The notes below the pieces were generated by a model. That model saw only the letters and a list, made by a program, of their open reading frames with translations, ran no database searches and had not been told where the DNA came from. A stretch of 64,000 nucleotides of DNA from Ignavibacteria bacterium (GTDB taxonomy: Bacteria; Bacteroidota; Ignavibacteria; Tepidaquicellales; OLB5), in contig JADZAP010000042.1 of NCBI GenBank assembly GCA_020852705.1, forward strand, positions 1-64,000, written 5' to 3'. Each line of letters begins with the position of its first letter. Position 1 is the stretch's first letter. This document shows positions 10,928 to 32,292 of this stretch, one piece after another. A program made the position numbers and the translations under genes.

Positions 10928-11278
10928 CTATTGGTTTTTAAATTTCAGAAGATACTCTTTTGATTTGTCTTTCCAGCCTGCCTGTGATTCGTAGTCAACA
11001 AAATATATTTTCAAATCAGCTTGTGATTCGTAATTGACAAAATACAGTTTAAAATCTGCCTGACTTTCATAACTAACGTTATACCATAAACCGTCTTTAT
11101 TTGCCTGTGATTCATAATCAACCATGTAAACCTTCAGGTCAGCTTGAGATTCATACGAAACAACATAAACCTTCAAATCAGCCTGCGATTCATATTGAAC
11201 TTTATACATCTTTTGTGTATAAAGAGATGTTGTGAAAATAAAAGAGAATATAAAAAAAATTGAAATGGTTTTTTTCAT
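10928..11278 (-). CDS. Small exported protein with six YESQA repeats (DUF6150-like)
   Basis: A 116-residue protein with a signal peptide (residues 1-22) and then an almost pure repeat. The pentapeptide YESQA occurs six times between residues 29 and 101 in ~11-residue units of the form YESQADLKVY-x-V. One longer unit in the middle is interrupted by NKDGLWYNVS. The regular alternation of polar and hydrophobic residues suggests short beta strands stacked as a solenoid or sheet. It resembles proteins annotated DUF6150; I know no function for them. It lies 9 bp after panD in a housekeeping operon, but nothing in it suggests a role in pantothenate synthesis. The ORF is certain from repeat conservation; the function is unknown. 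Confidence 0.8.
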   Translation of the reverse strand: MKKTISIFFIFSFIFTTSLYTQKMYKVQYESQADLKVYVVSYESQADLKVYMVDYESQANKDGLWYNVSYESQADFKLYFVNYESQADLKIYFVDYESQAGWKDKSKEYLLKFKNQ

Positions 11279-16640: not shown

Positions 16641-16676
16641 AATACAAAAAGGAGCTACTTGGCTCCTTTTTGTATT
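16641..16676. terminator. Perfect 15-bp bidirectional terminator
   Basis: AATACAAAAAGGAGC pairs without mismatch with GCTCCTTTTTGTATT across a 6-nt loop. It separates rpsT from the convergent family gene and overlaps the stop codon of the latter. A smaller stem (ATCCGATG with CATCGGAT) lies just upstream, near 16602-16624. Confidence 0.85.
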
Positions 16677-18115
16677 TCATCTATTTTTTCTGTAATCCAT
16701 ATTCCATTGGCTATGGTTTTATCACTTTTTACCAGTTTCCTGATCTTCTCCATTTCAAAATCATCGTTTGATCCCATTGCCTTTAAAAGACGACTCATGC
16801 AGCTTACAAATTTGATATTGTTGCTCCTTAATATATTGCTTACATGAGAGTTCTTTTCGTAAAAATGTCTGGTTGTATCTAGAAAGCTCTGCAAAGTTTC
16901 AAATTCTTTCATTTCGAAATACGTTCTTATATATAGTGTCTTTACGTATATTTTATCAAGTGTATCTATGAACTCTACTTTGCTGAGATATTCAAGAACT
17001 TTTCCGTATTCTTTCTGAAGATAATACAGATGGGCATAACAAAGCATTTTTGTCGGTTTTTGATAGGATGGCTTAAGCTTTGGAGCATACTCTTCTATAT
17101 ATTTTACAGCCCAATCATATTCCTTTAAATAAAGCGCATTACCAAGTATCTGCATAAATGTAACCTTTGGCAAAATTCGGCTTATTAAAACAATTTCCTG
17201 TTTAAGCTTAAGCTTATCTAGCTCAAAGTTTGCATGCCTTAAAGAAGCATCCCCTTCATTCACTTTCTGTACACAATAATTTGTAAGCTCTGCTGCTACC
17301 AAATGTTTTTCTTCTTTGGTGAAAAGATGATGGTTTTGTTCAAATAGCTCCATAAGTCTGAAAAAATGTTCCTTATTATTGTATTCCAGAGATAGCATTA
17401 TAGTTTCATGGTATATATCCAGTACTGCTGCATATTTAAATTTAGTTTTATAAGCATACTCAACAATTTTATCAAGTTTAAGATTTGTAATAAATTTATA
17501 AGGCATTAATTCTTCATACGGTTTATTGTACATGCTTTTGCTGGTACGCATACTGCCTATAATATCAGAAATTTCCCTCATAAAGTGCAGGATAATGTAA
17601 TTCCCCTTTTTTTCGACCAGCTCAGGAAGAAATTTCTGTGTATCTTCAATAAAATGGTATGCCATTCTGCCTTCCTCCAGTTCTGCTTTTTGTCTGAAAT
17701 ATGCTGACCCGATCCCAAGGCTGTCAAGCGCAGATTCCATTTCATTCAGCTTTTTTTTATAATATGAAGAAAGCCTCCTTTCAAGGAATTCTTCAGCTAC
17801 CTGCCGCTCCCTTCCGAATTTATCTCTTCCTAAAGAAACATACATTAAAAAGTCCTCGCACATTGCAAGCATGGAAGAGGACATATTCCAGATTATTTGT
17901 TTATTGTACTTTTTGCCCGGGTAAATTTTAGAATAAATGTATTCCGGGGTCATTTTCTCATCATCAAATTTGGGGTGGAATTTCTTGAGCTGGTTAAAAA
18001 AGGGAATGTAATTTCTTCCCCTGTTAAAAAACGGGGATGATATGAATTTTTCGAACTCTTTCATTTCGTTTTTTGAAAAAGTCCTTAATATATTAATGAG
18101 TTTTAAATTATTCAC
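16655..18115 (-). CDS. Unnamed ~480-residue paralogous family, member A
   Basis: I do not recognise a named family. The 486-residue product has no signal peptide or membrane segment and reads as almost entirely helical (alternating Leu/Lys/Glu heptads), like an alpha-solenoid. Its first ~95 residues share a conserved block with four other complete or partial genes in this window: L-x-TFS-xx-EMKEFEKFISSPFFN, then FHPKFD, then EYIYSKIYPGKKY. Later shared segments include KEYDWAVKYIEEY and a helix near residue 360 with an LYYLQKEYGKVLEYLSK pattern, resembling a TPR pair. It converges on rpsT and diverges from a small cluster of exported proteins. The repetitive helical C-terminus suggests protein-protein interaction; that is an inference. 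Confidence 0.85.
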   Translation of the reverse strand: MNNLKLINILRTFSKNEMKEFEKFISSPFFNRGRNYIPFFNQLKKFHPKFDDEKMTPEYIYSKIYPGKKYNKQIIWNMSSSMLAMCEDFLMYVSLGRDKFGRERQVAEEFLERRLSSYYKKKLNEMESALDSLGIGSAYFRQKAELEEGRMAYHFIEDTQKFLPELVEKKGNYIILHFMREISDIIGSMRTSKSMYNKPYEELMPYKFITNLKLDKIVEYAYKTKFKYAAVLDIYHETIMLSLEYNNKEHFFRLMELFEQNHHLFTKEEKHLVAAELTNYCVQKVNEGDASLRHANFELDKLKLKQEIVLISRILPKVTFMQILGNALYLKEYDWAVKYIEEYAPKLKPSYQKPTKMLCYAHLYYLQKEYGKVLEYLSKVEFIDTLDKIYVKTLYIRTYFEMKEFETLQSFLDTTRHFYEKNSHVSNILRSNNIKFVSCMSRLLKAMGSNDDFEMEKIRKLVKSDKTIANGIWITEKIDEIQKGAK

Positions 18116-20015: not shown

Positions 20016-20767
20016 TTAATGTTTAAAGTAATTTTCTTTAAGCTTAACATAAAATTCTTCTTTTTCTTTAAACTTTAAGAGTATTATATACTGGTACGAA
20101 GTTGTAATAAGATGGTTGTTGACCGGTTTTTTTTCATGTAGCCGGTTATTTTATTTATCATATTAATATCAAATTCTATTTTATTTTCCTTGCAAATATG
20201 TATCATAAGGTTATAATACTGGAACAGGTGAAAAATAAGATACTCAAAGAAACTGTCAAACTCAACAAGAATACCGGAAACATTGCTGGGCTTTTGGAAA
20301 AGGTCAACAATCTGGCTTTCTACAATAAGAAGATAATTGTTGTATAGGAACGGACTATCTTTAAATTCTGTTTTATTGAAGCTTTCCTCAAATGCCCTAA
20401 CCAGTTTTTTATGAAGATTAAACTATTCTCTAAGTCGCAGCTGAACTATCAGGTTGTAATTGGGTACAAAATTGGTGGAGGGGTTTGGTATATATTTTAA
20501 GAATTCCAAACCAAGCCCGTAAAGATCGGATGATATATTTTTTATTTTAAAATAATCAAACTTTTCATCAGGAAAAACCTTACCGAAGATCTGTTCTTCA
20601 GTTAGATTATCAGAATTAAAATCAGGATAAAATTTTAAAATCGATTCTTTAAGATTTTGTACATTCTTATTTTTATTGAAAAAAGGAGGAAGAACAAAAT
20701 CGCGGAATTATTTAATTTCAGCCGGAGAAAATGTATATAAGAAAGAAATTAATTTAATGTTTATCAT
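20016..20767 (-). pseudogene. Decayed, truncated member of the ~480-residue paralogous family
   Basis: Read on the minus strand from ATG at 20767, the translation follows the family closely: KLISFLYTFSPAEIK, stop, FRDFVLPPFFNKNKNV, then KFYPDFNSDNLTEEQIF. The segment FDYFKIKNISSDLY is shared almost exactly with the member at 30862. In-frame stops appear where the intact paralogue has Lys (EIK-stop-F against EIKKF, and LRE-stop-FNLH against MRKLFNLH), and a frameshift follows near residue ~215. The copy ends after the segment equivalent to DNYFKN, about half way along the family length. It is a 5'-half remnant of a recent duplicate. Confidence 0.85.
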
Positions 20768-20916
20768 TAACTTAGTGTTTCTTTATTTTCTAAACCACCG
20801 CATTTTGCCAATTAAATTTTCTAAATATTTTAACTTAAAAAGTTTAAATTGATTAAATATGCAAAGTATTATATATTTTACCCTAAAAAATTTTCTAAAT
20901 TAAAAAAATTTTAGTT

Positions 20917-20957: not shown

Positions 20958-21031
20958 GGCGAAACGGTATTATTTAAATCACAATTTATTTTACTCCTGT
21001 CAGCTATCAAATTTGCTGATACTGTTTCGCC
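20958..21031 (+). promoter_or_regulatory. Structured 5' leader: 13-bp long-range stem upstream of a cargo gene
   Basis: GGCGAAACGGTAT at 20958-20970 pairs with ATACTGTTTCGCC at 21019-21031 (12 Watson-Crick pairs and one G-U). A small inner hairpin TCAGC/GCTGA sits at 21000-21019. The stem is much richer in G+C than its surroundings. It begins a few bases after the predicted transcription start and lies ~115 nt before the coding start. No T-run follows, so it is not a simple terminator. Confidence 0.5.
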
Positions 21032-21145: not shown

Positions 21146-22312
21146 ATGAAAACAAAAATATTACTCATTTTACTTTTTGGAACATTTGTACAAGCAACAT
21201 TTACCCAGTGGCAGCAAGTTAACGGAACTCCGTATGTATATTCGTTAAACTCACACAACGGTAATATCTATTCCGGAACCGGATACGGATTAATTATATC
21301 AACTAACAGCGGAGCAAACTGGTCACAAACATCTTTAACTGCAAGCACTCTTTCATTTGCAGCATCTGAAAATAATTTTTTTGCGGGCACATCAACTGCT
21401 ATATACCGCTCAACAAATGCCGGAGTAAACTGGACAAATATCAATTCCGCGTCGCTTGTCAGGACTATTGTAATTATTGGAGGAAATGTTGTTGCGGGCT
21501 TTTCAGGCGGAGTGAAGGTTTCAACTAATAACGGTGCTAATTGGGTACAATCAAATCTTGCATTTGATGTAATGGCTTTGACTGTGAGCGGAACAGATAT
21601 TTATGCCGGTACATTAAGCATGGGTGTTTACAGATCAACCAACAACGGCTTGAACTGGAATCAAACATCTTTAAATATTGGATATATGCGTTCAATGTCT
21701 TCTTTCGGTAATTATATTTATGCGGGCGCTTTTGGTTCGGGGATTTTTATTTCAACAAACAACGGTGCTAACTGGAGTCAGTCACTTATCGGCAATAATA
21801 TTTATGCACTCGCATCAATAGGCGGCTCTGTTTATGCTGGTTGTGATACCGGCGTTTATGTATCAAATAATAACGGTTCATCATGGGAAAGGAGAAACGA
21901 GGGCTTGGGAAGTTACATACGCATGGGCAGCCTGTGTGTTTTTAACCAGGATCTTTTTGCAGGAAAGGAATCGTTATCTGGTATAGGGATTTACAAACGC
22001 CCTCTTATTGAAATTTCAGTTTTAGAGCAGATATCAAATGAAATCCCATCAGCATTTAAACTAAAACAAAACTACCCCAACCCCTTTAACCCTGCAACCA
22101 TTATTGAATTTTCTGTGCCTAAATCATCTTATGTTAAGCTTGCAGTATATGATATGACCGGCAAAGAGGTTGATGTGCTTGTTAGCCAAAACCTGAACGC
22201 AGGAATATTTAAAACCAATTGGGATGCCTCAAAATATTCAAGCGGGGTTTATTTCTATACAATAAGGGCAGAAGATTACCATGATTCTAAAAAAATGATT
22301 TTAATTAAGTAA
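21146..22312 (+). CDS. T9SS cargo, YCF48/BNR-type beta-propeller
   Basis: Secreted beta-propeller protein of 388 residues. The signal peptide is residues 1-20. Residues about 21-290 consist of ~40-residue blades with the pattern IYSGT-x-YGLIISTNSGANW, YAGTLSMGVYRSTNNGLNW and YAGAFGSGIFISTNNGANW, i.e. the Asp/Asn-box-like STN-x-GANW turn found in YCF48/VPS10/BNR propellers. Residues about 298-388 are a T9SS type A sorting domain (KQNYPNPFNPATII, YSSGVYFYTI, KKMILIK). It is preceded by a promoter and a structured leader and converges on a member of the unnamed family. Such propellers are usually surface or matrix proteins; no ligand is evident. Confidence 0.88.
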   Translation: MKTKILLILLFGTFVQATFTQWQQVNGTPYVYSLNSHNGNIYSGTGYGLIISTNSGANWSQTSLTASTLSFAASENNFFAGTSTAIYRSTNAGVNWTNINSASLVRTIVIIGGNVVAGFSGGVKVSTNNGANWVQSNLAFDVMALTVSGTDIYAGTLSMGVYRSTNNGLNWNQTSLNIGYMRSMSSFGNYIYAGAFGSGIFISTNNGANWSQSLIGNNIYALASIGGSVYAGCDTGVYVSNNNGSSWERRNEGLGSYIRMGSLCVFNQDLFAGKESLSGIGIYKRPLIEISVLEQISNEIPSAFKLKQNYPNPFNPATIIEFSVPKSSYVKLAVYDMTGKEVDVLVSQNLNAGIFKTNWDASKYSSGVYFYTIRAEDYHDSKKMILIK

Positions 22313-22366: not shown

Positions 22367-22392
22367 AGCCGGGTCAATTCCGGCTTTTTTTT
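22367..22392. terminator. Terminator between convergent cargo and family genes
   Basis: AGCCGG pairs with CCGGCT (7-nt loop) and is followed by a run of T on the plus strand. It overlaps the stop codon of the minus-strand family gene. Confidence 0.75.
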
Positions 22393-23795
22393 ATTATTTC
22401 TTCAAGTTTAAGTATTATCCATTCTTTATGATAAAAATACTCAGAATCTTCAACTTTATTTTTCAATTCTTCTGCTGCGCGGAAATTTCTGTTTATTTTA
22501 ACACTATTTAATTCCGTAATAAATTTAATGAATCTTTTATTGCCGAAGTTCATTTTTTCCCATGATGCAAGTTCATTGTATATAAAATGTCTGTATGAAT
22601 CAATTTGAAGATACAACTCTACAGAATAATCTAGTTCGTAATAACATTTCAGTATTATTTTTTTAATGTCATTTTTCATATTAAACCATTTAGGATTAAT
22701 ATTTGATAATAATTTAAGTGATTTTGCAAAATTCCCTTTATCAAATTCAATCAATCCCAGGCAATAATTAATTATTGAAACTTTTTGAGTTGGGTGCAAA
22801 TTTACTTTATATTTATTGATAAACTTTTCAGTCCAATCAAATTGTTTGAGATAAGAAGAATTACGCACAATGTTTGTAAATGTGATTGGTTCTGTTGCAT
22901 TGTTATTCATTAGATCTTCCTGAAGTATCTTTTTGGAGAGCTCAAACATGATTTTTCTGAATTCTGATTTACCTTCACCAATATTATATATACACTGATC
23001 TATCAGAATAACCATAGCATTATAATTGTGTTCCTTTTCCACCTTGTCCGAATTATTGTTTCTGAAATTTACAAGTTCATGAAAATAGTTGTTTTCTTTT
23101 GTGGTTAAAAGTTTAATCATTAGATAATAATAATTAATTAAAGGTTTTGCCCTGTATTTAGAATCAGCTAAAAAATTTATTATAAACTTAAAAAACTCAA
23201 TATTTATGGTATCTTCGTAATCTGTCGAATTAATTAAATGACCCAGATGTTCGTTTAAAATTACTGTAAAAAAATATGAGTATATTTTATCCAGAGATTT
23301 AGTATTTTTCTCAAATTGTGAATTCATTCCCTTATAAATTAACCGCTTTACATTTTCAACTTTATAAATGTATTCGTAAATTTCCATTGTCTCAACTGAG
23401 CTTTCAAGAATGTTAATATAATCAGTGTATTTTTTATTGTGAAGGTTAAATAACTTTCTGTTTGTAAGCGCCTCAATCAATTCCAGGTTATAATGCAATT
23501 TGTTTTCATTAATTTTAATATCAACAATAAATTTTTGAAACAACTGTATTGTTAAAGAAAATACCTTTCTCATTTGCACATCACTGTATTTTTTCCCCGG
23601 AAAAACCGTACTGTATATTTTCTCTTCTGTAAAGTTCTCGTTACTGAAGTTGGGATAATACTTTTTTATGGAATCATAAAATCTTATCACTTCGCTTCGA
23701 TTATTGTGGTATGGTGACTTTACGAATTTTCCGAATTCTTTGAACTCAATTTTATCCAATGTGTTAAGTGCTTCAAATAGTTGTTTATTTTTCAT
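22374..23795 (-). CDS. Unnamed ~480-residue paralogous family, member B
   Basis: A 473-residue protein without signal peptide, rich in Lys, Asn and aromatic residues and apparently all-helical. The family N-terminal block is present but diverged: LNTLDKIEFKEFGKFVKSP, an HN in place of FN, then KYYPNFSNE and EEKIYSTVFPGKKY. The later family-typical segment is QFDWTEKFINKYKVNLHPTQK near residue 330. The gene is convergent with the propeller cargo at 21146 and divergent from the cargo pair at 24083/25400, repeating the arrangement of the other members. I know no function for the family. The intact 1.4-kb frame in AT-rich DNA shows it is maintained by selection. Confidence 0.85.
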   Translation of the reverse strand: MKNKQLFEALNTLDKIEFKEFGKFVKSPYHNNRSEVIRFYDSIKKYYPNFSNENFTEEKIYSTVFPGKKYSDVQMRKVFSLTIQLFQKFIVDIKINENKLHYNLELIEALTNRKLFNLHNKKYTDYINILESSVETMEIYEYIYKVENVKRLIYKGMNSQFEKNTKSLDKIYSYFFTVILNEHLGHLINSTDYEDTINIEFFKFIINFLADSKYRAKPLINYYYLMIKLLTTKENNYFHELVNFRNNNSDKVEKEHNYNAMVILIDQCIYNIGEGKSEFRKIMFELSKKILQEDLMNNNATEPITFTNIVRNSSYLKQFDWTEKFINKYKVNLHPTQKVSIINYCLGLIEFDKGNFAKSLKLLSNINPKWFNMKNDIKKIILKCYYELDYSVELYLQIDSYRHFIYNELASWEKMNFGNKRFIKFITELNSVKINRNFRAAEELKNKVEDSEYFYHKEWIILKLEEIIKKSRN

Positions 23796-23925
23796 ATTTA
23801 TTGTGCCACAGAATTTTTATAAACATTGCTGAAATTTATTTAATTTTCAACATATTTTTGATAATATTTTATACTACATGCCACAATTGAATTAAAATTT
23901 CTTTTATATTTTTTTAAATGGTTCT

Positions 23926-24039
23926 TATATTTGTTGCGGTCGTTCTCTATCTCAATATAAATTTAATAAAATATTTAATTTCTCTGTCTAAAACAGAGAG
24001 CGACCAAGGATAGGGGCGCTGTGGGATTTTTCACAGCGC
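23926..24039 (+). promoter_or_regulatory. Promoter -7 element and structured leader with competing stems
   Basis: TATATTTG at 23926-23933 fits the Bacteroidota -7 element; the -33 position holds only TTTT. Starting 5 nt later, GGTCGTTCTCT (23938-23948) can pair with AGAGAGCGACC (23995-24005; 10 pairs plus one G-U). An alternative hairpin TCTCTGT/ACAGAGA (23981-23999) uses the same 3' bases, so the two folds exclude each other. A third stem, GCGCTGTG/CACAGCGC (24016-24039, 8-nt loop), follows. The cargo gene starts 44 nt further on. The architecture resembles an attenuator or riboswitch but matches no class I know. Confidence 0.45.
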
Positions 24040-24082
24040 TTCATCTGATTAACGGATTTCAGTAAATTAATCTAATATTATT

Positions 24083-25387
24083 ATGAAAATCAGATTATTT
24101 GCAGTCTATTTTTTGTTAGTATTTAGTCTTTCGCTGGGATTTGGATCGTGCTCCGAGGATCCAAATGCAGTTCTTATTAATTTTATTCATTATTGCTTAT
24201 CCGGAATGTGGGCACCTGGAGATATGGGTTCGAGTAATATATTCACTATAGCAGTTGGCAATAATGGAGTAATTTTAAAATCCGATGGTACCGACACTAT
24301 ACATTTTTTTCACTGTCCCAGCGTAACCACTCAGAATTTAAACGGTTTAAGAATTCAGCCTACTACCTACCAGCCTTTGGTTATTGCTGTGGGTAACAAC
24401 GGAACTATAACACGCTCATCTGACATTGGTGAAACATGGATTTCATCATCCCCGATAACTTCCGCTAATTTGTATGGTGTGGATTTAAACAATTCATATT
24501 CATATGCAGTCGGTGATAATGGCACAATTCTTTTCGGGCAAAACGGTGGAGCAAACTGGATGCTAGTTACCAGCGGCACAACCAGAAATCTTAAAGCAGT
24601 TAGTATAAGCGGCATAGGGGGAGGAGTGCTAGTTGCAGTCGGCGAAAAAGGAACGATATTAAGAACAACCGACTCAGGATTAAACTGGTCAAATGTCAGT
24701 TTATCAGACACAACAGTTAACTTTTATAGTATAACGCAGAGGACAAGGCAAAATTTTTATATAACAAATTATTTAATTGCAGGTTCACAGGGTAAAATTT
24801 ACAAATCAACAGATAACGGAGTAACCTGGATATTAAAAAACAGCGGAACAACTAATACTCTACGTTCAATATTTTTCAGCGGTAACGATAGTGGAGCAGT
24901 CTCCGGAGATAACGGGACAGTAAGAATGACTACGGATGCGGGTGAAACCTGGTTTTCTGACCCTTACTTTAATAATGTTACAGGAAGTATAACATCAATT
25001 TCACTTATGCCAAGAAGCGCCCGAACATTCACTGCGATATCAAATAATACTAAATTGTATGTAGCAAGCGAAGATACAAATCTGGTAATAATTGGAATAA
25101 AAAATATAAGTAATGCTATTCCGGATAAATTTATTTTAGAGCAAAACTTCCCTAATCCGTTTAATCCAGTTACCAGCATTGTTTTTAAAGTAAAACAAAA
25201 CTCTGATGTTAACATTGTAATTTTTGATGTTAATGGCAGAGAAATTGAAACCATTGTAAATAACAGATTTACAACAGGTACTTACTCTGTAGATTGGAAT
25301 GCTGCTAATTTTTCAAGCGGTGTTTATTTCTATCAAATGACAGCAGGAAATTTTAAAGAAACTAGGAAAATGATATTAACGAAATAA
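24083..25387 (+). CDS. T9SS cargo, YCF48-like propeller with N-terminal Cys (tandem copy 1)
   Basis: Exported 434-residue protein. The N-terminal hydrophobic segment ends in LGFGSC with Cys23, a possible lipobox of the loose Bacteroidota type. Residues about 60-330 are propeller repeats typical of YCF48/photosystem II assembly-like proteins: IAVGNNGTITRSSDIGETW, AVGDNGTILFGQNGGANW, VAVGEKGTILRTTDSGLNW and SGDNGTVRMTTDAGETW. Residues about 345-434 are a T9SS type A sorting domain (EQNFPNPFNPVTSI, FSSGVYFYQM, RKMILTK). The next gene, 12 bp downstream, is a clear duplicate. Combining a possible lipid anchor with a T9SS tail is unusual. The structured leader lies just upstream. Confidence 0.88.
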   Translation: MKIRLFAVYFLLVFSLSLGFGSCSEDPNAVLINFIHYCLSGMWAPGDMGSSNIFTIAVGNNGVILKSDGTDTIHFFHCPSVTTQNLNGLRIQPTTYQPLVIAVGNNGTITRSSDIGETWISSSPITSANLYGVDLNNSYSYAVGDNGTILFGQNGGANWMLVTSGTTRNLKAVSISGIGGGVLVAVGEKGTILRTTDSGLNWSNVSLSDTTVNFYSITQRTRQNFYITNYLIAGSQGKIYKSTDNGVTWILKNSGTTNTLRSIFFSGNDSGAVSGDNGTVRMTTDAGETWFSDPYFNNVTGSITSISLMPRSARTFTAISNNTKLYVASEDTNLVIIGIKNISNAIPDKFILEQNFPNPFNPVTSIVFKVKQNSDVNIVIFDVNGREIETIVNNRFTTGTYSVDWNAANFSSGVYFYQMTAGNFKETRKMILTK

Positions 25388-25399
25388 ATTATAATAATT

Positions 25400-26719
25400 A
25401 TGAAAAAAAAATCAATTCTTTTTATTTTACTCATAGTGAGTTTTACCTCGATGAATTTCAGAGGATGCAATTTTGAGATCGGACCATGGGAAATATTTTG
25501 GGACGTGGTAAGTAGGGGATTTATTTCAAGTTATTCAGTATATCCTCCACCCGGGGATAACCCGGTTGATACGCTGTTTTACTCTTTATCGGTTGGAAGT
25601 AACGGTAAAATTATAAGAGGAACAGGTAAATCTAATTTGATATTTCAATTAATACCAAGCGGTACGACACAGCAATTAAACTGCGTAAGAGTTTCAAATA
25701 ATTCATTTCAGAATAATGTATCAATAGCAGGCAACAATGGCGTCGTACTGGTTTCAAGCAATACCGGGTTAAACTGGGTAACTAAAACTCCTGTTACAAG
25801 CGCAAATCTGAATGCAGTTGACCATAACTATTGGTTGTTTGCTGTTGGTGATAACGGAACAATTCTATATGCCAATGAAATGTTTACGGGTAGTTTAGTT
25901 TCACGTAACAGCGGAACTACCAGAAATCTTAGAGGCGTTGTAATATCATCTGTTAATAACCAAAAAATAATTGTTGTAGGAGATAAGGGCACAATATTAA
26001 GAAGTACGGATACGGGCAATAATTGGGAAAATGTAAGTATTCCCGATACCTCATTTAATTTTTATGCCATAAATCAAAAAAACGCTAATCAACTGAATTC
26101 TGGTGACAGGTTTATAGCAGTAGGCAGCGGAGGCAGGATATATAAATCTACTGATATTGGCGCTACATGGCAGCAAAAAACCAGCGGTACTACAAATACT
26201 CTGCGAAGTGTATATTTTCTAAATCTGGATAGCGGTACCGTTGTAGGTGATAACGGAACAATAAGATTTACTACTAATGGCGGAGAAACATGGTTTACTG
26301 ATCCGTTTTTTAATTCACCATCTTCCAGAAACTATAGATCAGTTTCCTGTATTCACATGCAATCCCGAACATTTTCGGCTATGTCTGATTCAATTTTTAT
26401 TGTTTCAGATGACCCGGTTTATTTAGGAATTAATAACGTATCAACTGAAATACCCAAGGCATTTTCTTTATCACAAAACTATCCTAATCCGTTCAACCCT
26501 GTTACTAATATTAAATTTTCTGTTTCGAAGAATAGTTTTGTAAAACTAACTATCTTTGATATTAACGGCAGGGAGGTTGAAACTATTGTTAACCAAAATA
26601 TGCACGCTGGTACATATAATGCAGACTGGAATGCATCCGGTTTTTCAAGCGGAGTATATTTCTATAAGTTGATTACGGATGATTTTGTTGAGACAAAAAA
26701 GATGATATTGATAAAATGA
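25400..26719 (+). CDS. T9SS cargo, YCF48-like propeller (tandem copy 2)
   Basis: A 439-residue duplicate of the preceding gene, in the same order and probably the same transcript. The N-terminus has a hydrophobic signal ending NFRGC with Cys23, at the same position as in copy 1, though Arg before Gly makes lipidation less likely. The blades VAGNNGVVLVSSNTGLNW, AVGDNGTILYANEM, VVGDKGTILRSTDTGNNW and VVGDNGTIRFTTNGGETW follow the same order. The sorting domain is canonical (SQNYPNPFNPVTNI, FSSGVYFYKL, KKMILIK). It converges on a member of the unnamed family. The two copies have diverged well beyond recent duplication, so both are probably functional. Confidence 0.88.
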   Translation: MKKKSILFILLIVSFTSMNFRGCNFEIGPWEIFWDVVSRGFISSYSVYPPPGDNPVDTLFYSLSVGSNGKIIRGTGKSNLIFQLIPSGTTQQLNCVRVSNNSFQNNVSIAGNNGVVLVSSNTGLNWVTKTPVTSANLNAVDHNYWLFAVGDNGTILYANEMFTGSLVSRNSGTTRNLRGVVISSVNNQKIIVVGDKGTILRSTDTGNNWENVSIPDTSFNFYAINQKNANQLNSGDRFIAVGSGGRIYKSTDIGATWQQKTSGTTNTLRSVYFLNLDSGTVVGDNGTIRFTTNGGETWFTDPFFNSPSSRNYRSVSCIHMQSRTFSAMSDSIFIVSDDPVYLGINNVSTEIPKAFSLSQNYPNPFNPVTNIKFSVSKNSFVKLTIFDINGREVETIVNQNMHAGTYNADWNASGFSSGVYFYKLITDDFVETKKMILIK

Positions 26720-26852: not shown

Positions 26853-28313
26853 CTATTTGGTTAGTTCATTCGCTTTTTCCAGCAGCCATTCGTTTTCAAG
26901 AACGTTTGGGTGTTTATGGAGAGCAACTACTAAATCATCTAAATCTTCTTTTGAACTGTTCTCTTTTACTTTAAGCAAACGTGCGTAGTATTTCATAAAA
27001 TTGGTTTGCCTCTCATACCGTTCATCTGTATAATCTTCTTTAACAGAGGCAATGAACTTTCTGTGGGAAGAAAGAAGATATTCTGCCTGGTCGTAGTATG
27101 ATAATTCATAATATATCATAAGCATCAGATTTCTGAGCGCTGCTTTCAGGGGAATATTCATAAAAGTTTTAACTTTGCTTACGGTTTCGAGAGCTTTCTC
27201 TAATTCTCCTCGCTCCATATATAACCGCCCTTTGCCGTAAGCCACAACAACTTCCCCGCTGTCTTCGGGCAAATCATTTTCGTATTTTTCAATAAATGAC
27301 TCAGCCCAGTCAAATTCTTTCAAACGAATTGCTACCAAAGAAATGTTACCAAATAATAGTGTATCAAAATAAACGTGGGACTTTAATCTATAAAAACCTT
27401 TTTCCAAAGCAAGCTTATAAAGTTCGTGCCGCTCCCGCAAAAATTGTTTCTCACCGGCCATCATTCTGTCTAGGCAAAATTGTTGGAGAATTGTGTTAAG
27501 AGTGAATTTTTTATTCTGTCCGATTTCCTTGCTTTCTTTGAACAGAATGTCTTTCAGAAGATAAAAATATTTATCAGTCTTTTCTTTAAGAAGCAGGACT
27601 TCATAAAGATGTAGCCGTAAGTTGGTATTTTGAATAAAATCGTTATCTGTGTTTAAAAGAAAAGAAATTACATTTTCAGTAATGCGTTCGTCAAAGGCGA
27701 CTGGCGTTTGCTGCCTTCTTGCAAGAATGCTTCGGTAGGTTATCAATGCATCCTCAAAAAAATAGTGCGCAAGGGAATTGTTTGTATCAGAAAGAGAAAC
27801 GTTGTCAAACTCTTTAAAGTTTTTATTTTTAAACCTGCTCCATTCAATGTAATCAGTCTTAATTTTTTCAAGAAGGTAGTTGTAATAGTAATATTTTTTT
27901 TCACCAACCGCCTTCATCACTTCTATTTCCCTTTTTGCATCCGAAAGATTTTTAATCAGGAGTTTTTCCAGTTTTCTTTCATTTAATTCCCTTGCCGTAA
28001 GCAGAGATTCATAGGCGGGCATTTTCTTTAAGTTTATTAGTTTTAAATATTCTTCACTAAGCTCTGTAAGTATGTGTGTAATTGTTTTCATAAATCCTTC
28101 GCTGTATTCTGCCTTGCCGAAAATTGTTTTGTATATTTTTTCCTTCTCCATTTTTTTGGAGTCAAACTCAGGGTAACATTTCTTCAGGTACCCATATAGT
28201 CTAATTGCTGATTGGTTTTTATTGAAATAAGGAGAGCATACAAGTTCACCAAACTCACGCATTTCTTTTGTCGTGAACGTTTTGAGAGTTGATATTAGGA
28301 TAGAATTAAACAT
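26853..28313 (-). CDS. Unnamed ~480-residue paralogous family, member C
   Basis: A 486-residue protein with no export signal. The N-terminal family block reads LKTFTTKEMREFGELVCSPYFN, then KKCYPEFD and KEKIYKTIF, followed by an amphipathic helix with ILTELSEEYLKLINL. The middle has LKEFDWAESFIEKYENDLPED (the segment shared by all members) and a TPR-like helix pair around GKGRLYMERGELEKALETVSKV. Slightly higher G+C use and more acidic residues than members B and D suggest an older divergence. It converges on the second propeller cargo and diverges from the FN3/propeller pair. Function unknown; the TPR-like C-terminal half suggests a scaffold or adaptor. Confidence 0.85.
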   Translation of the reverse strand: MFNSILISTLKTFTTKEMREFGELVCSPYFNKNQSAIRLYGYLKKCYPEFDSKKMEKEKIYKTIFGKAEYSEGFMKTITHILTELSEEYLKLINLKKMPAYESLLTARELNERKLEKLLIKNLSDAKREIEVMKAVGEKKYYYYNYLLEKIKTDYIEWSRFKNKNFKEFDNVSLSDTNNSLAHYFFEDALITYRSILARRQQTPVAFDERITENVISFLLNTDNDFIQNTNLRLHLYEVLLLKEKTDKYFYLLKDILFKESKEIGQNKKFTLNTILQQFCLDRMMAGEKQFLRERHELYKLALEKGFYRLKSHVYFDTLLFGNISLVAIRLKEFDWAESFIEKYENDLPEDSGEVVVAYGKGRLYMERGELEKALETVSKVKTFMNIPLKAALRNLMLMIYYELSYYDQAEYLLSSHRKFIASVKEDYTDERYERQTNFMKYYARLLKVKENSSKEDLDDLVVALHKHPNVLENEWLLEKANELTK

Positions 28314-30861: not shown

Positions 30862-32292
30862 CTAAAACTTTTCAATCATATCATTCAGCCAGAATTTAAT
30901 TCCAAAATGATTTTGCTGATTCATTTCTATTTTTTCTCTGAGAAGGTTTGCATCCTGTTTTTTTTTTTTATTATTTGTTTCAAGATGTAGGTTTAACAAA
31001 TAAAGAGTATTGTATAAAAAATTCATTACCGGATTTTTATAATTATCCGGCAGTGCAGTTTCTTTAAGAAGAGTCTTTTTGAATAATTCAATAATTTCTC
31101 TTGTCTCTTCAAAAAATCCGAGTTCATAATTCAATTGAACCTGCATTATTTTTACCTGTATTTTAAGAATAGCCAGCTGAAAATTAACCAAAGTAAGAAG
31201 TCTTAAAGCTTCTGCAAGTTCACCTTTTTTATGTAAAATAAATGCATTAGAAAAATTTATTGCATTATCTCTTTGCTCCTCTGGAAGCATTGGAGTATAA
31301 TCTTTAATAAATTTTTCAGCAAGCTCAATATCACCTACCCGGGTAAATACTTTTACATAATTTATAAAATCAGGGTAAAGAAGCTCGCCTGAAGTTACTC
31401 TATTGTTCAGAAATGAATGTTTGTAAAGCTCATAGCATTCATTTTCAAATTTGCGGTTTCCGTTAAAATTGTACATATCAGCACAATAACCAAACATATA
31501 CATGTGTATTTTGTATGCTGCAAAATCATCAATGGAAGACAAGTTTTTAAAATAATTATCCTTTAAAATATAATAATATTCTTCTTTTTGTTTAATTTTT
31601 AATAGTATTAGGTACTGGTAGGCAATGGTTGTTGGCTGAGAGCTAACGGGACCCTTTTCAAGATACAGCACAATTTCATCAAGCATTTTAATATTTAATT
31701 GAACATTGTTTCCTTTGCTAATATGCAGAAGTAAATTATACAGCATCAGCAAATTGTTGATAAGGTATTCATAAAAATTATCAAATTCATTTAAAATACC
31801 AGAAATGCTGCTTGGTTTTTCAAAAAGATCAACAAGTTGGCTTTCTGTAGAAAGAAGATATTTATCGTAAAGTAGATATTCATTATTAATATTTTTTTCG
31901 TTTAATGATTTTTCTTTTGATTTAACAAGTTTGCTGTGAAGATTAAACAATTTTCGCATTCGCAATTGTACCATTAAATTATATTCACCGGTAAATTCTG
32001 TAACAGAATTTGAAATTGTACTTAAAAATTCCAATCCAAGCATATATAGATCTGATGATATATTCTTAATTTTGAAGTAATCAAATTTTTCCTCAATAAA
32101 TAATTCGGCAAAGATTTTTTCTTCATTTAGCAATTCAGAATCATAATGAGGATAATACCTCATAAGCACATCATTTAGTTTCTGAACATTTTTATTTTTA
32201 TTGTAAAAAGGCGAATTTACAAAATCTCTGAATTTTTTTATTTCAGAAGGTGTAAATGTTTTTAATAATAAAATTAACTTCGTGTTTTTCAA
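30862..32292 (-). CDS. Unnamed ~480-residue paralogous family, member D
   Basis: A 476-residue, apparently all-helical protein with no signal peptide. The N-terminal block is LLLKTFTPSEIKKFRDFVNSP, FYNKNKNVQKL, YYPHYDSE and EEKIFAELF, followed by FDYFKIKNISSDLYMLGLEFL, which is nearly shared with the decayed copy at 20016. It also has the later segment VGDIELAEKFIKDYTPMLPEEQ. It is convergent with the frameshifted propeller gene; upstream (same strand) lies the secreted subtilase. The near-identity to the decayed copy shows that this branch of the family duplicated recently. No function is known to me. Confidence 0.85.
   Translation of the reverse strand: MKNTKLILLLKTFTPSEIKKFRDFVNSPFYNKNKNVQKLNDVLMRYYPHYDSELLNEEKIFAELFIEEKFDYFKIKNISSDLYMLGLEFLSTISNSVTEFTGEYNLMVQLRMRKLFNLHSKLVKSKEKSLNEKNINNEYLLYDKYLLSTESQLVDLFEKPSSISGILNEFDNFYEYLINNLLMLYNLLLHISKGNNVQLNIKMLDEIVLYLEKGPVSSQPTTIAYQYLILLKIKQKEEYYYILKDNYFKNLSSIDDFAAYKIHMYMFGYCADMYNFNGNRKFENECYELYKHSFLNNRVTSGELLYPDFINYVKVFTRVGDIELAEKFIKDYTPMLPEEQRDNAINFSNAFILHKKGELAEALRLLTLVNFQLAILKIQVKIMQVQLNYELGFFEETREIIELFKKTLLKETALPDNYKNPVMNFLYNTLYLLNLHLETNNKKKKQDANLLREKIEMNQQNHFGIKFWLNDMIEKF

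Follow-up and report, generated by a model that had tools for sequence, protein, structure and literature searches.

The array and the leader at 23938

The window, by which we mean the whole 64,000-nt stretch of DNA that was analysed, is part of an Ignavibacteria genome and contains an array in which several minus-strand copies of a regulator-like gene each face a secreted-protein gene on the plus strand (Table 1). We are concerned here chiefly with the gap between one of these copies and a pair of genes for secreted propeller proteins, referred to below as cargo. This gap holds predicted promoter and operator-like elements followed by three stems, P1, P2 and P3, which together make up the 23938 leader. 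A second leader, leader 1, lies between a decayed regulator copy and a further propeller gene. Elsewhere in the window, positions 10928-11278 hold a 116-aa reading frame built of VxYESQADLK repeats.

Table 1. Features of the array, in coordinates of the window
Feature	Position	Strand	Remarks
Further regulator-family copies	16655-18115, 26853-28313, 30862-32292	-	
Decayed regulator copy 5' of leader 1	20019-20833	-	internal stops
Leader 1	20958-21031	+	15-bp P1, 20958-20972 / 21017-21031, loop 44
Leader 1 cargo: BNR propeller with Por_Secre_tail	21146-22312	+	domain match
Regulator-like gene, 473 aa, alpha-solenoid	22374-23795	-	multi-copy; no Pfam or NCBIfam match
Operator-like TGCCAC, copy 1	23804-23809	+	adjoins regulator start
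Operator-like TGCCAC, copy 2	23879-23884	+	19 nt 5' of TTTCTTT
TTTCTTT upstream promoter element	23898-23904	+	28 nt 5' of the -7 box
-7 box TATATTTG, Bacteroidota type TAnnTTTG	23926-23933	+	predicted from the box pattern in the sequence
P1 5' arm GGTCGTTCTCT	23938-23948	+	first base is the predicted +1; pair probability 0.83-1.0
Local hairpin P2, TCTCTGT 23981-23987 / ACAGAGA 23993-23999	23981-23999	+	rivals the inner 5 bp of P1 only
P1 3' arm AGAGAGCGACC	23995-24005	+	pair probability 0.83-1.0; kept in 7/7 leaders of the seven-leader family
P3 two-tier hairpin	24008-24046	+	outer GGAT 24008-24011 / ATCT 24043-24046; inner stem within 24013-24042
Cargo 1: YCF48-type propeller with Por_Secre_tail (type IX sorting tail)	24083-25387	+	domain match
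Cargo 2: propeller with Por_Secre_tail	25400-26719	+	domain match

PMC9723704 places the flavobacterial -7 box at -12 to -5 relative to the start. Given the position of the -7 box in the window, this placement predicts a +1 at 23938, which is the first base of P1. A preliminary description of this DNA had put the 5' arm at about +4; it instead begins at the predicted +1 here and at about +7 in leader 1. The promoter elements recur in the clade to which the neighbouring regulator belongs. TTTCTTT is present in all ten members of this clade, and a TAnn[TA]TTG box stands 28 nt after it in all eight members in which a box was found. TGCCAC occurs twice in eight of the ten gaps and once in L018 and L023; the second (or only) copy is followed 19 nt further 3' by TTTCTTT in 9/10, and in L018 that copy is altered. 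TGCCACA itself is found in nine of the ten clade regions, compared with a maximum of three in shuffled sequences. This pair of TGCCACA words at a fixed promoter spacing resembles a clade-specific operator, and other clades have other common words at similar places. On the strength of the promoter boxes, the 23938 leader is a predicted 5' untranslated region and is presumably transcribed.

P1 of this leader comprises 11 bp, including one G-U pair, around a loop of 46 nt, and the strong inner hairpin of P3 has its arms at 24013-24026 and 24029-24042. The segment from 23926 to 24045 folds with an energy of -37.8 kcal/mol (z -5.84), a value matched by none of 200 shuffles. The three stems named in the preliminary description (P1, TCTCTGT/ACAGAGA and the strong hairpin at 24013-24042) are all present in the sequence, and a structured leader does precede the cargo gene, with its transcription predicted. 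That these stems are mutually exclusive, as was also proposed, is true in part. The local hairpin P2 takes the inner 5 bp of P1, but the outer 6 bp of P1 are contained in both alternative folds, and because they are common to both, P2 trades places with one half of P1 and is compatible with the other. The fold with P2 costs +2.0 kcal/mol (+1.9 to 7.5 in six relatives), and its pair probabilities are 0.03-0.13 against 0.83-1.0 for P1, so that the 23938 leader does not offer two exclusive folds of comparable energy. A scan of 23850-24120 found no terminator-like site, and hence no intrinsic terminator of the kind that an attenuator would use, and no significant pairing was detected between the 3' arm of P1 and the cargo start region (shuffle p 0.44). 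With outer P1 present in both folds, the 23938 leader is no global switch, and no terminator lies downstream. A candidate pseudoknot between TCTCTGTCT and GGATAGGGG in this leader (p 0.02) was set aside; it would break the local hairpin, the inner zone of P1 and P3.

Even with the cutoff relaxed to E <= 1, Rfam had no match to 23850-24100. At the gathering score the whole window yielded one tRNA only, with no leader match, and 20 related loci yielded none, so that the search of the leader and these loci returned no known aptamer family.

It had further been suggested that the same architecture occurs twice in the array. This second leader, leader 1, is real and shares its design with the 23938 leader, but the two do not share sequence. 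Sequence 3' of its P1 forms no clear two-tier hairpin, the downstream fold having z -0.5. The fold of its 121 nt is weaker (z -2.66, with 4 of 200 shuffles equally low), and its 3' arm shows no significant pairing with the cargo start region (p 0.47).

Related leaders and compensatory changes

The 23938 leader and six relatives from the same genus form a family, labelled GGTCGT, in which P1 is the most conserved part and the sequences of P2 and P3 drift while their complementarity is kept. The six relatives have a CCTC/GAGG hairpin at the position of P2. Compensatory changes in homologues had been set beforehand as a test of the preliminary description, and they are found in both P1 and P3, as expected of a structured cis-acting leader RNA. 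In the alignment of the seven leaders, which covers 22 pairs, 94.1% of the cells are paired, compared with 31-49% when the partners are slid; these counts use alignment A6 only, since the MAFFT alignments A2 and A3 misplace P1 of the 23938 leader and A4 scatters P3. Three of the 22 pairs are changed on both sides, namely C-G to U-A in P1, and C-G to A-U and G-C to A-U in P3, where the outer and inner tiers have one such pair each. The covariation score was reached by 6 of 500 shuffles. Covariation within the family is modest, the 23938 leader standing only one or two changes from its six relatives, and the counts accordingly depend on a small number of changes. A possible pairing of GGATCT at the 5' end with AGATCC in the loop of P3 was noted by eye; it is intact in L017, L018, L023 and L046, contains a G-U in L020, is broken by one mismatch in L047 and is absent from the 23938 leader.

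Of 44 genomes from the order, five contain the arm pattern GGTCGTCC, at one or two places each, and all five belong to the host's genus; the host genome itself has no match, its P1 being different. The pattern CCTGTGAG was found in 10 of the 44, at one place each. A dispersed repeat or mobile element (REP, MITE) is excluded by these counts of one or two places per genome.

For a wider comparison we used 122 regions upstream of regulator genes, 121 of them long enough, from which L001 (the query) and L016 and L024 (partial or cut) had been dropped. Stems with a long loop (25-110 nt, E <= -20) are present in 27 of the 121 regions, which are the best-scoring among the matches listed and not a random sample, against a shuffle mean of 1.0 and a maximum of 2; the other 94 have no stem at E <= -20. 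In 10/121 the stem starts 0-16 nt after TAnnTTTG, compared with none in 20 shuffles. The thresholds behind these counts, and the classes described below, were fixed after inspection of the data. In a control of 464 kb, consisting of the window and 20 stretches of genome G008, four non-coding stems (E <= -18) lie within 20 nt after TAnnTTTG, and three of these adjoin a regulator, two being in the window and one in L147. The fourth (L155:958-1077) has no adjacent regulator, and its surroundings contain several GTCAAAT and GGGGTC inverted repeats.

Two designs recur among the leaders, whose classes align poorly. The first consists of P1 and, directly after it, a two-tier hairpin whose internal loop is rich in purines. 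The GGTCGT, TGTGAG and TCCGGTGGG families have this design, as do L094 and L120, and their P3 sequences are unrelated. A descriptor of the two-tier hairpin matched 18 of the 121 regions (0.3 in shuffles), with the 23938 leader narrowly below threshold, and is nonspecific when used alone, giving ten non-coding hits in the 464 kb of control, of which no more than two adjoin a regulator. The second design is a pseudoknot (P2) formed by the P1 loop and sequence 3' of the 3' arm, as in L041 (ACTTTCCGGAGTTT / AAATTCCGGAAAGT) and L107 (AAACCTCCGGA / TCCGGAGGTTT), which have near-identical P1. Among 27 automatically chosen leaders the pseudoknot had a shuffle p <= 0.05 in nine, the 23938 leader among them, and p <= 0.01 in four, and a run of at least five T follows P1 within 90 nt in 10 of 13 pseudoknot leaders scanned. 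Nine pseudoknot leaders (L030, L037, L063, L086, L041, L107, L106, L081 and L027) carry an ATG within the 5' arm of P1 or directly behind it; these ATGs open frames of 7-50 codons with no obvious common peptide, and might encode leader peptides. A further leader family is represented by L052 and L176 (AAGGCAGGGCAG / AAGACAAGGCAG), in which a G-C pair of P1 has become A-U by compensatory change.

Inspection of the first long frame in 16 leader-bearing loci suggests, by eye, a secreted N-terminus. Ten of twenty cargo proteins were scanned with Pfam, and Por_Secre_tail was found in three of the nine from leader-bearing loci and in the one leaderless control; some of the remaining scanned proteins have propeller or lectin-like domains.

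The regulator family and its co-inheritance with P1

The regulator has 15 matches in the host genome and was found in 35 of 39 genomes searched, with up to 44 matches each among the matches listed. The related genomes that possess it are Ignavibacteria MAGs, including the UBA2360 lineage, and members of the family were seen also in Chitinophagales and Saprospiraceae MAGs. A scan of the genome contigs with a single regulator protein returned nothing, and the same scan with alignment A7 of the regulator returned 17 loci. In Pfam and NCBIfam the protein has no named match, although its profile makes weak contact with consensus TPR repeats. The AlphaFold model of the 473-aa protein is all-helical, with a pLDDT of 90.9. 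On structure comparison the Rap and NprR rows lead, with Z from 17.6 to 14.2, the next unrelated row scoring 13.9; helical repeats give high Z by chance, and this likeness serves as a lead only. Foldseek returned no match to the regulator at E <= 0.001. For the N-terminal 125 residues it returned none with E below 2, and a second structural comparison gave Z of at most 5.5.

On a tree of 120 regulator proteins, the seven GGTCGT rows and the four GGGACAGTC rows are each accounted for by a single change with respect to the other labelled rows. All five P1 labels together demand eight changes, compared with a shuffled mean of 20.2; the labels were given by eye, and the count omits 83 unlabelled rows, which may fall inside labelled groups. 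As judged from this tree, P1 sequence follows the regulator clade. Four of the eleven rows of the GGTCGT subtree (L019, L021, L022 and L025) are without the GGTCGT stem; L021, L022 and L025 have the operator and no leader stem, and L019 is a tandem second copy. Since unlabelled rows interrupt the group in this way, the leader is gained and lost more freely than the regulator, and the existence of four such rows means that the regulator does not need it.

Interpretation and comparison with known systems

The reading that we favour, with a probability of about 0.6, is that the 23938 leader is a cis-acting 5' leader of the secreted-propeller mRNA, acting most likely after transcription has started, through mRNA lifetime and ribosome access. 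To form P1, the first bases of the mRNA would pair with bases some 57 nt further 3', and the two-tier hairpin P3 would stand directly after it. P1 would lock the 5' end, with P3 between it and the start of the cargo gene; a 5' end held in a helix would set the lifetime of the mRNA, and the structure would set the access of ribosomes. The formation of P1 would be the regulated step. The local hairpin, which trades with the inner half of P1, may tune or nucleate this fold and would not switch it. The sequences themselves show the helices with their conservation and compensatory changes, their position behind a promoter box and their tie to the regulator family; from these we infer transcription, action in cis, an influence on mRNA stability or on translation, and a signal of whatever kind. 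Because the sequence of P1 is conserved, something presumably reads it. The leaders as a whole are best read as a hypervariable set, absent from Rfam, that would control the mRNAs of secreted proteins after the start of transcription. An extension of this reading, on which we would place only small weight, is that matched sets exist by the dozen in Ignavibacteria, each consisting of a regulator with its own operator, promoter and leader of private sequence, and that within a single cell these serve as many parallel channels for the expression of secreted surface proteins. P1 would then be an address read by the matching regulator or by another sequence-specific factor, and the downstream domain an exchangeable output module.

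Of the alternatives, the one that survives best, although we consider it improbable, is that the divergent regulator binds P1 as its RNA target, with every alpha-solenoid paralog acting on the leader of its own cargo mRNA for antitermination, stabilisation or repression. The co-inheritance of P1 with the regulator clade, together with its conservation beside a drifting P2 and P3, is what this idea would predict, and the alpha-solenoid is the shape of some RNA binders. However, L021, L022 and L025 belong to the same clade and retain the operator without the stem, L137 keeps its leader with no regulator detected in its 1.5-kb flanks, and the best structural rows are peptide receptors of the Rap, NprR and AimR type, which are not RNA binders.

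Somewhat less likely is that the leader truly alternates between two exclusive folds, as an attenuator or a translational switch. The attenuator or riboswitch switching claimed in the preliminary description is not supported for the 23938 leader, where outer P1 persists, terminators and Rfam matches are lacking and pairing with the start region is at chance level; it fits six relatives better. We searched 33 rows, which represent 32 places since L100 and L133 are one place, for pairing between the 3' arm and the region of the start codon. In six distinct leaders (L048, L079, L100/L133, L135, L137 and L121) the sequence immediately 5' of the cargo start is a copy of the 5' arm and can pair with the 3' arm (shuffle p <= 0.01 each). 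Matching changes are seen in CCATCTCAC/GTGAGATGG, CTATCTCAC/GTGAGATAG and CATCACAT/ATGTGATG. The p of 0 obtained for L020 was discounted because its downstream sequence is too short. These six relatives, which lie outside the family of the 23938 leader, can thus pair in the manner of a true switch. The frequent T-run after P2 in the pseudoknot leaders, and their ATG at the 5' arm, also accord with switching, but no ATG was found in the P1 loop of the six members of the 23938 family that were scanned.

That the arms are DNA sites, either paired half-sites for a protein or the ends of an invertible segment, and do not act as RNA, we regard as unlikely. Phase-variable promoters are known to have inverted repeats on either side of a short segment, and arm sequences are conserved within a family. 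On the other hand, the spacing of the P1 arms across leaders ranges between 28 and about 100 nt and shows no helical phase, P1 contains G-U pairs, and the P2 and P3 helices covary without conservation of sequence; moreover, the promoter box lies outside the repeats and the loop has the same orientation in 7/7 leaders. A metabolite-binding riboswitch is very improbable: the position and complexity of the leader, the conserved family sequence and the possible GGATCT/AGATCC pairing in four of six relatives are in its favour, but there is no Rfam match, the loci differ in sequence without the common core of an aptamer, and the cargo is secreted and not metabolic.

The favoured reading, a cis-acting leader that controls mRNA lifetime and ribosome access, invites comparison with several known systems. 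The 5'-terminal stem-loop of the ompA type is reportedly a stabiliser of mRNA, according to Emory, Belasco and co-workers. P1 resembles it as a helix at or a few bases from +1, given the predicted start, in the mRNA of an outer-surface protein. P1 differs from it in its long loop, in a helix sequence that is conserved within each regulator clade, and in the second structured domain that comes after it. Attenuators and translational riboswitches use alternative pairings within the leader, and relatives of the 23938 leader share with them the ability of the 3' arm to pair close to the start codon, or a following T-run; the present leaders differ from them in having no common core, and the 23938 copy in having no terminator. 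In Flavobacterium psychrophilum, a relative that has the same type of -7 box, 64 structured 5' regions are listed in PMC9723704. That set was derived from transcripts, and the passages of PMC9723704 consulted show no link to a multi-copy divergent regulator. No description of the present leaders was found in a mainly open-access literature, including the available parts of PMC9723704, PMC7509114 and PMC10075063. The neighbouring regulator may share with the RRNPP receptors (Rap, NprR, AimR) the fold of its C-terminal alpha-solenoid (Z 17.6 and rmsd 5.0 over 287 residues against Rap), but it has no sequence match, the best identity is 8-12%, and its N-terminal 125 residues have no good match among solved folds. 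These findings point to a large regulator family that has no Pfam or NCBIfam entry.

A single conserved core is usual within a family of structured leaders, whereas here the design is constant and the sequence varies by locus, in step with a regulator family of up to about 40 copies per genome. The leaders form a natural series for separating the sequence of a helix from its shape and, if confirmed, would show that many similar surface-protein genes are kept under separate post-transcriptional control.
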